A stretch of DNA of 64,000 bases. Origin: Cupriavidus alkaliphilus (GTDB lineage Bacteria; Pseudomonadota; Gammaproteobacteria; Burkholderiales; Burkholderiaceae). Made by a program: the position numbers and the translations under genes. Positions within the stretch are counted from its first letter, which is position 1, and the number at the start of each line of letters is the position of its first letter. Below are positions 37,475 through 38,883 of this stretch, in pieces. The stretch spans positions 248,001-312,000 of the forward strand of contig NZ_FMAD01000001.1 of the NCBI RefSeq assembly GCF_900094595.1. Direction: 5' to 3'. The notes under the pieces were generated by a model that saw only the letters and a list, made by a program, of their open reading frames with translations, did no database searches and had not been told where the DNA came from.

Positions 37475-38662
<1,188 letters not shown>

Positions 38663-38715: not shown

Positions 38716-38750
38716 CAAAAAGCAAAAAGCCACGGGGGTTGCCCGTGGCT
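38716..38750 (-). terminator. Terminator hairpin in the argD leader (candidate attenuator)
   Basis: On the minus strand AGCCACGGG, loop CAACC, CCCGTGGCT forms a perfect 9-bp stem followed by TTTTTGCTTTTTGTT. It lies upstream of argD rather than after a gene, 54 bases before the argD ATG. GGGGTGCC in the leader frame (38796-38789) can pair with GGCAACCCC in this hairpin (38743-38735) and disrupt it. Confidence 0.85.
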
Positions 38751-38778
38751 CGTTGACCTGAACAGACGCAATCGACGG

Positions 38779-38847
38779 TCAGCGGCGCGGCACCCCGGTG
38801 GGGAGCGACGTACGGAAGCTGCGGCGTCGGTTGAAGGTCATGTGCAT
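38779..38847 (-). CDS. Arg-rich leader peptide upstream of argD (candidate)
   Basis: A 22-codon frame, possibly leaderless, starts at the ATG at 38847, exactly where the upstream promoter predicts transcription to begin; a second in-frame ATG lies at 38841. It encodes six arginines: codons 7-9 (CGA CGC CGC), 12 (CGT) and 21-22 (CGC CGC), just before the TGA. All six codons are read by one tRNA-Arg (ICG anticodon). It is followed 28 bases later by a strong intrinsic terminator and then argD. This is the architecture of a ribosome-stalling attenuator; translation is not shown, and high GC content raises Arg frequency, so the call is inferential. Confidence 0.5.
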   Translation of the reverse strand: MHMTFNRRRSFRTSLPTGVPRR

Positions 38848-38854
38848 GCGGGCA

Positions 38855-38883
38855 AATATAAGGCGCACGGGCCCGGGTGTCAA
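38855..38883 (-). promoter_or_regulatory. Near-consensus sigma70 promoter of the argD leader
   Basis: On the minus strand TTGACA (38883-38878), exactly 17 bases, TATATT (38860-38855). The predicted start, 7-8 bases downstream, is the A of the leader ATG at 38847. Confidence 0.85.

Follow-up and report, generated by a model that had tools for sequence, protein, structure and literature searches.

A candidate arginine attenuator with a predicted leaderless leader peptide upstream of argD in Cupriavidus

The window, a stretch of 64,000 nucleotides of Cupriavidus alkaliphilus DNA, carries on its minus strand a short Arg-rich frame between a promoter-like sequence and an intrinsic terminator, directly ahead of argD. 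This raises the question of whether the expression of this arginine biosynthesis gene is adjusted by attenuation, that is, by a ribosome that would sense the supply of charged tRNA-Arg while reading the frame.

Layout of the argD leader and its conservation in Cupriavidus

The elements of the locus are the following:

38855–38883, minus strand: sigma-70-type promoter TTGACA-N17-TATATT, predicted by motif scan, with 7 nt from the −10 box to the ATG in 30/30 genus loci listed
38779–38847, minus strand: leader-peptide frame, predicted to be leaderless, 22 codons (MHMTFNRRRSFRTSLPTGVPRR) plus stop; frame and RR core are kept across genera
38821–38829, minus strand: Arg codons 7–9 (CGA CGC CGC), a run that opens with CGA in 72/72 distinct leaders
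38812–38814, minus strand: Arg codon 12 (CGT), the likely regulatory stall codon in Cupriavidus from folding of 27/27 distinct genus leaders
38793–38803, minus strand: segment 1:2 protector hairpin CCCC-ACC-GGGG, from the minimum-energy fold
38781–38796, minus strand: segment 2, the putative antiterminator strand within the frame (GGGGUGCCGCGCCGCU), from duplex energy and co-evolution
38727–38751, minus strand: intrinsic terminator hairpin, whose 5' arm doubles as the putative antiterminator partner
38720–38728, minus strand: U-rich tail of the terminator
37475–38662, minus strand: argD, acetylornithine transaminase (NF002985 equivalog), the proposed regulated gene

The promoter, the ATG, the 22-codon frame with six Arg codons, the 28-nt spacing and the 9-bp hairpin with a T-run had been described in a sequence-only reading of this DNA, and we found them base for base as described. 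The leader ATG is at 38847, 7 nt past the −10 box, and the stop codon at 38781–38779; Arg accounts for 6 of the 22 codons, at positions 7–9, 12, 21 and 22 (CGA CGC CGC CGT CGC CGC). The terminator stem, a perfect 9 bp (10 if a G-T pair is counted) with a T-run, lies 28 nt past the leader stop. ArgD scores 784 bits against the NCBIfam equivalog model NF002985, with a cut-off of 568, and the gene upstream of the leader, on the same strand, encodes an oxidoreductase with 2Fe-2S, FAD and NAD domains.

Between 38300 and 39300, TTGACA-N17-TATATT is the only promoter-like match (shuffled sequences give a mean of 0.1). Taken alone, the terminator is at chance level, with one found and 0.6 expected in shuffles, and the free leader RNA has no unusual stability (z = −0.9). 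Of the 1802 ATGs scanned on both strands of the window, only the one before argD has the full combination, defined as a frame of 12–45 aa with RR and at least three Arg, a −10 box 5–8 nt upstream and a terminator downstream.

Full-length ArgD is present in the window's genome and in 34 of 35 genomes of the same genus, the 35th being 54% complete. For the comparison within the genus we used the 30 argD loci listed, the window's own included. In all 30 the gap between the −10 box and the ATG is 7 nt, the frame has 21–22 codons and contains RR, and the spacing from stop to stem is constant. The peptides themselves differ (for example MNTAMLRRRARTLLPTGVPRG, MNYAINRRSYRTLLPTGVPRG and MNQRRNRRQSRTLPLSGVPRG) and retain the Arg pair or run, the RT Arg and the stop, while the C-terminal GVPRG is well conserved within Cupriavidus. 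The constant 7-nt gap in these loci fits the leaderless start that had been predicted, in which the leader peptide would be read from the first base of the mRNA, as is probable.

Distribution in the order and relation to RF02884

A covariance model, R1, was searched in 349 genomes of the order and matched 121 of them at E 0.01. Outside the family most R1 matches, among those listed, cover the terminator end only and were treated as chance. Seven R1 loci outside the family were inspected: L087–L089, from three other families, each have a full leader ahead of argD, and L090 and L102–L104 were rejected. In addition, 51 of 348 genomes of the order yielded a close ArgD (E 1e-140), which left 48 upstream regions outside the genus once three genus genomes had been dropped. 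An RR frame, a −10 box and a terminator occur together in 21 of these, from nine families; among the controls, the combination appeared in 1 of 480 dinucleotide-shuffled sequences and in none of the 48 reverse complements. R1 had already picked up six of the 21 (L087, L088, L123 and the three that belong to the window's family), and the candidates L152 and L156 are weak. The scan finds no leader in the other 27 regions, which include all nine of family f4 and all four each of families f21 and f30 and genus g36.

Two further observations concern the argD upstream regions of single families. The candidate leaders of L153–L156 (family f5), of which only L156 passed the scan, share a different pattern, around GRGA, and have fewer consecutive Arg codons. 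In L122 (family f8), where the scan finds no leader before argD, the short upstream frames resemble the end of the oxidoreductase gene read out of frame, so that argD may follow that gene closely.

Among the best 80 named argD loci, a set that overlaps the order genomes, 65 pass the scan and two more (L205 and L231) have a leader further upstream, which gives 67 of 80. The positive loci come from Cupriavidus, Ralstonia, Paraburkholderia, Caballeronia, Herbaspirillum, Collimonas and Undibacterium, with Noviherbaspirillum, Glaciimonas, Oxalicibacterium and uncultured bins as further titles; the 13 of 80 in which the scan finds no leader include Alcaligenes faecalis, Pollutimonas harenae, Collimonas humicola, Glaciimonas immobilis and a Caballeronia symbiont. 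The argD leader of L232, from a Caballeronia symbiont, is decayed, its frame stopping ahead of any Arg run. In the 65 named leaders, eight of which repeat an earlier one exactly over 100 nt, the gap from −10 box to ATG is 6 nt in 12, 7 nt in 50 and 8 nt in 3, a range of 5–8 nt being itself a criterion of the scan. The scan, which demands RR and the gap, was drawn up when leaders were already known; in 557 kb strand-bases of the named loci it gave one match that was not an argD leader.

On this comparative evidence, the leader is conserved in much of the order examined. Cupriavidus, Ralstonia and Burkholderia had been named beforehand as the genera in which to compare the DNA upstream of argD: the Arg codons, the stop and the hairpin are indeed retained in Cupriavidus, Ralstonia, Paraburkholderia, Caballeronia and the Burkholderia loci of the Rfam family, the rest of the peptide differing, and the leader also reaches beyond the family.

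Across genera the peptides share little except the RR(R/RR) core (MNRIQSELRRRRSPLP, MNATTISLRRRSQPQRGLPCA, MKIFTDMSSPNIARRRSSFSEPGTMYE and MNTAMLRRRARTLLPTGVPRG), and this divergence around a shared RR fits codon sensing. The peptide itself, rather than Arg codons that would sense tRNA charging, could be the sensor, arresting in the ribosome in response to arginine or ornithine, as the nascent peptide SpeFL does, and the pathway of the downstream gene (ornithine/arginine) and the conserved GVPRG of the Cupriavidus peptides are in favour of this. Such arrest is nevertheless quite improbable, given that length, N-terminus and C-terminus all change across genera with little but RR kept, and that the conserved Cupriavidus C-terminus overlies segment 2, so that RNA pairing can explain its conservation.

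The Rfam family RF02884 (BcKCsr7, 'Burkholderia sRNA 7') matches the window element over its full length (1–157) but weakly, at 22.7 bits (E 0.029), below the gathering score of 59, and a genome-wide search at E 0.1 gave no match for the window's genome. In that search RF02884 matches 190 of 299 family genomes, 133 of them above the cut-off, in 11 of 25 genera. We took 50 loci from these matches, the 30 best and 20 picked by hand from six other genera. The argD start follows the leader in all 50 (with one changed residue in the motif of L066), and 49 have an ATG at the equivalent place and an Arg pair or run in the frame (for example MNRFLSALRRRRSPLRPDAAGSSRTRA, MIRILNALRRRRSPLP, MNRIQSELRRRRSPLP and MNLIAIASIRRRRTLPQPGCRAARYRLR). 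The exception, L064, belongs to a small fragmented genome and has a decayed leader, with the ATG lost and the Arg run shifted. With L064 left out, L001–L080 comprise 72 distinct leaders, and the Arg run opens with CGA in every one of them; this codon is otherwise rare (3 of 102 Arg codons), as judged from only six window genes picked from the ORF list.

In 30 Burkholderia-type loci the predicted length from the ATG to the end of the stem is 141–150 nt. The relevant entry of a 2024 review (PMC10987360) gives Bc_KC_sr7, which is the same as RIT34 and nc5U30, as 147 nt on chromosome 1 of B. cenocepacia (2,967,641–2,967,787), which is consistent with a transcript start at the ATG. In the consulted text of Sass 2017 (PMC5688073), 82 short 5'UTR transcripts are ascribed to processing or attenuation, and nc5U30 would, to judge from its name in the review, be one of these. 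RF02884/BcKCsr7 thus resembles the window element in its position before argD, its full-length match and its related leader and terminator, and differs in being described as an sRNA, with neither a leader peptide nor an arginine role in the parts of the descriptions consulted.

It may be asked, then, whether the RNA is chiefly a trans-acting sRNA, with argD downstream by coincidence or as a minor target. This is how Rfam lists the Burkholderia homologue, the expression of which in B. cenocepacia is reported as confirmed in the review entry (PMC10987360). It is very unlikely to be the main role of the RNA, because argD follows in 50 of the 50 Rfam-derived loci, the Arg-codon frame is kept in 49, and processing or attenuation is what the text consulted of Sass 2017 (PMC5688073) invokes for its short 5'UTR transcripts.

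Alternative pairing and ribosome position

An attenuator that responds to the ribosome would need a second structure that competes with the terminator. In the window, GGGGTGCC (38796–38789) is complementary to GGCAACCCC (38743–38735), with one bulged A, and in the other leaders too the segment downstream of the Arg codons, within the frame, pairs with the 5' arm and loop of the terminator. The pairing is GGGGUGCC..GGCU with AGCC..GGCAACCCC in Cupriavidus, GGAUGCCG..GGCU with AGCC.CGGCAUCC in L031, GGAAG.CCG..UGGCU with AGCCACGG.CUUCC in L077 and GGGGCGCC with GGCGAUCCCC in L078. The cognate duplex is better than mononucleotide shuffles at p < 0.05 in 43 of the 72 distinct leaders. Duplex swaps genus by genus within one family had a mixed outcome, and a wider swap test with 28 representatives was therefore made. 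Cognate pairs average −18.6 kcal/mol in this test and swapped pairs −15.7 kcal/mol; when row and column effects are removed, 0 of 20,000 permutations is as good as the cognate pairing, and the p value for 11 distant representatives is 5e-5, both values being indicative since the representatives are related and picked by hand. Taken one by one, only 15 of the 28 have their cognate arm in the top quarter of the row, and for L178 it ranks among the worst. Covariation inside the terminator stem was discarded as evidence, the stem being nearly invariant in alignment A1 and hence uninformative.

The pairing between frame and terminator that had been proposed from the window alone is thus supported by co-evolution, and the comparison of sequences argues for a mutually exclusive antiterminator that uses the terminator arm, weak in the window itself. 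Here the last codon of the leader (38784–38782) is CGC (Arg), whereas the 29 other genus loci listed have Gly; L194 (Cupriavidus sp. WGlv3) has the same Arg ending. This change breaks an antiterminator pair and would weaken the antiterminator of the window, where the duplex of segment 2 with the terminator arm has −20.4 kcal/mol compared with −25.1 kcal/mol in L002, which has the GGCU. As judged from its sequence, the window leader is a weakened example of the element. The view that the hairpin merely ends the oxidoreductase transcript and that the short frame is meaningless is hardly credible. That gene does lie upstream on the same strand and the hairpin could also stop its read-through, but a near-consensus promoter and a conserved frame stand between the two, and frame and hairpin arm show co-evolution.

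The influence of the ribosome was predicted with an assumed footprint of 13 nt downstream of the first base of the A-site codon. In equilibrium folding the terminator dominates in most sequences at every ribosome position, and when the ribosome is moved from the stop to a stall at the first Arg the terminator drops by more than 0.1 in 26 of 135 leaders and rises by more than 0.1 in none. With the terminator dominant in all ribosome states, equilibrium folding was rejected as proof of a switch. In truncated transcripts, in which the 3' arm is not made, the 5' arm is paired upstream with a value of 0.76 for the first-Arg stall, 0.43 for the stop and 0.39 for no ribosome. The stall exceeds the stop by more than 0.2 in 99 of 134 leaders and is lower by more than 0.2 in 2 of 134, one of the 135 leaders having no value and being left out. 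One of the two leaders with the opposite order is that of the window (0.55 stalled, 0.77 at the stop).

A stalled ribosome frees more sequence to pair, and shuffled spacers are for this reason the fair control. For the first-Arg stall the overall values are 6.8 kcal/mol and, for the shuffled spacers, 5.5 kcal/mol; 83 of 135 leaders are above the shuffle mean, and 34 of 135 have p ≤ 0.05. In Cupriavidus the first-Arg stall is no better than shuffled spacers (mean p 0.59), and it was dropped as the active state in this genus, the RT Arg giving a better fit. The protector hairpin CCCC/GGGG is present in the minimum-energy fold when the ribosome is at codon 7 and absent when it is at codon 12. Sequestration of the arm is higher for a stall at the RT Arg (codon 12 of the window) than for the stop or for no ribosome in 27 of 27 distinct genus leaders, with genus means of 10.0 (RT-Arg stall), 6.4 (stop), 3.7 (free) and 6.5 kcal/mol (shuffled); the window comes last among the 27, with stall and stop values of 7.1 kcal/mol that are equal to one decimal. 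These models suggest that the effective stall codon in Cupriavidus is probably Arg12, not Arg7–9. The sequence-only reading had allowed a stall at codons 7–9 or at codon 12 to free segment 2, and folding in Cupriavidus favours codon 12 and goes against codons 7–9.

Proposed mechanism, related systems and arginine control

We consider it very likely, on the strength of these comparisons, that argD is controlled by a ribosome-mediated arginine attenuator that uses an intrinsic terminator and a leaderless leader peptide. From the observed sequence, conservation, frame, spacing and co-evolving alternative pairing we infer a start site, translation, stalling and an arginine response that would work together as follows. 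Transcription would start at or beside the A of the leader ATG, and a ribosome would initiate on the leaderless end and translate the Arg-rich peptide. With plentiful charged tRNA-Arg the ribosome would reach the stop and cover segment 2, so that the terminator forms and a short RNA of about 120 nt is released, the presumed counterpart of RF02884/BcKCsr7. Under a shortage of charged tRNA-Arg, the ribosome would stall on the Arg codons; segment 2, left uncovered, could then pair with the terminator at its 5' arm and loop, and RNA polymerase would read into argD. When the frame is not translated, the 1:2 hairpin (CCCC/GGGG in Cupriavidus) would let the terminator form.

Ribosome-mediated attenuators of the trp, his and leu type control amino-acid biosynthesis genes. 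The argD leader shares with them consecutive codons for the end product, an antiterminator and an intrinsic terminator, and a place directly before a biosynthesis gene. The frame is enriched in codons of the cognate amino acid (RR is in the frame in 67 of the 80 named loci too, a set for which it was a search criterion), a gene of the same pathway, argD, is directly downstream, and the intrinsic terminator is between frame and gene. It differs in having Arg codons and argD and, if transcription starts at the ATG, in having no Shine-Dalgarno region. The sequence-only reading held a leaderless leader peptide to be unusual; there is a described precedent, however, since in Sinorhizobium meliloti trpL, according to the sections consulted of PMC7298713, the leader ATG is the 5' end of the transcript and a terminated RNA, rnTrpL, is made. 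Both features are predicted for the argD leader as well, while the S. meliloti system concerns Trp, trpE(G) and the Alphaproteobacteria, with trans functions reported for rnTrpL (PMC7298713).

Other systems share single features, as described in the parts of the sources consulted. In the Salmonella speF leader, ORF34 has two consecutive Arg codons that sense arginine, but it controls ornithine decarboxylase through Rho, RNase G and the structure of the RBS, has a conserved peptide domain, and lies in a 516-nt leader with a Shine-Dalgarno sequence, not a leaderless one (PMC6386406). The ORF34 domain (DUF2618, PF10940) gave no Pfam match at E 0.01 to the window or a Burkholderia-type leader peptide, a search of low power at 22–27 aa. 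The Pseudomonas carA leader likewise precedes an arginine-related gene, with a leader peptide reported in P. aeruginosa and an attenuation that gives a short RNA proposed in P. syringae; it differs in that arginine control is transcriptional and attenuation is linked to pyrimidines, no Arg-codon switch being described in the text consulted (PMC4997734). The cysS leader motif uORFC-8-2 of the Rhodobacterales is also a codon-sensing attenuator proposed from comparative genomics, with tandem codons and a terminator, and differs in its Cys codons, its tRNA-synthetase gene and the class in which it occurs (PMC8632094, sections consulted).

The earlier claim that no argD attenuator had been described agrees with the literature searched, in which no title deals with one (supplements and most subscription papers being outside its scope), but has to be amended in that Rfam already lists the homologue from Burkholderia, as RF02884/BcKCsr7. 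The word argD is absent from the main texts, as far as consulted, of PMC4603805, PMC7563307, PMC8632094, PMC6321483, PMC7011215 and PMC2965389, and that of Sass 2017 (PMC5688073) has, to the same extent, neither argD nor arginine. As far as searched, the class of mechanism is known, and the amino acid and the gene are new.

The C-terminal domain of ArgR (PF02863) was detected in 0 of 150 genomes of the order and in 8 of 14 control genomes, which offers a possible reason for control by an attenuator. At 27 loci before argG, argF, argC or carA in eight genomes (argC being found in three of the eight), a frame of this kind, a −10 box and a terminator never occur together. The DNA upstream of argF (seven loci) has, in several cases, a GC-rich inverted repeat and a T-rich stretch right before the ATG. 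A short Arg-rich frame behind a −10-like site upstream of argF is common to two Cupriavidus genomes (MILAVKLRMRRERRLRDALRS and MILAITLRKRRERRLRDTLWP); in the argF loci L245–L252 the feature is about 230 nt before argF, and in the window's genome it stands at C21:245901, some 1.2 kb to the left of the window. Perhaps this is another arginine-linked leader.

A more speculative extension, to which we give only a small chance, is that much of this order, in which ArgR was not detected, controls arginine synthesis by the leaderless argD attenuator and that the terminated RNA (BcKCsr7 in Burkholderia), a tiny leaderless mRNA, has a further role in trans, exerted by the RNA or by the Arg-rich peptide, in the way reported for rnTrpL/peTrpL. 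The argD attenuator itself would give an Rfam 'sRNA' a specific and testable role and, as far as searched, would add arginine biosynthesis to the pathways under intrinsic-terminator attenuation. Because its regulation would depend on leaderless initiation, the element also provides a large natural set of leader peptides that apparently start at the first base of the transcript, useful for studies of such initiation. For the order, in which ArgR was not detected, it offers an answer to how argD may be matched to the supply of arginine.
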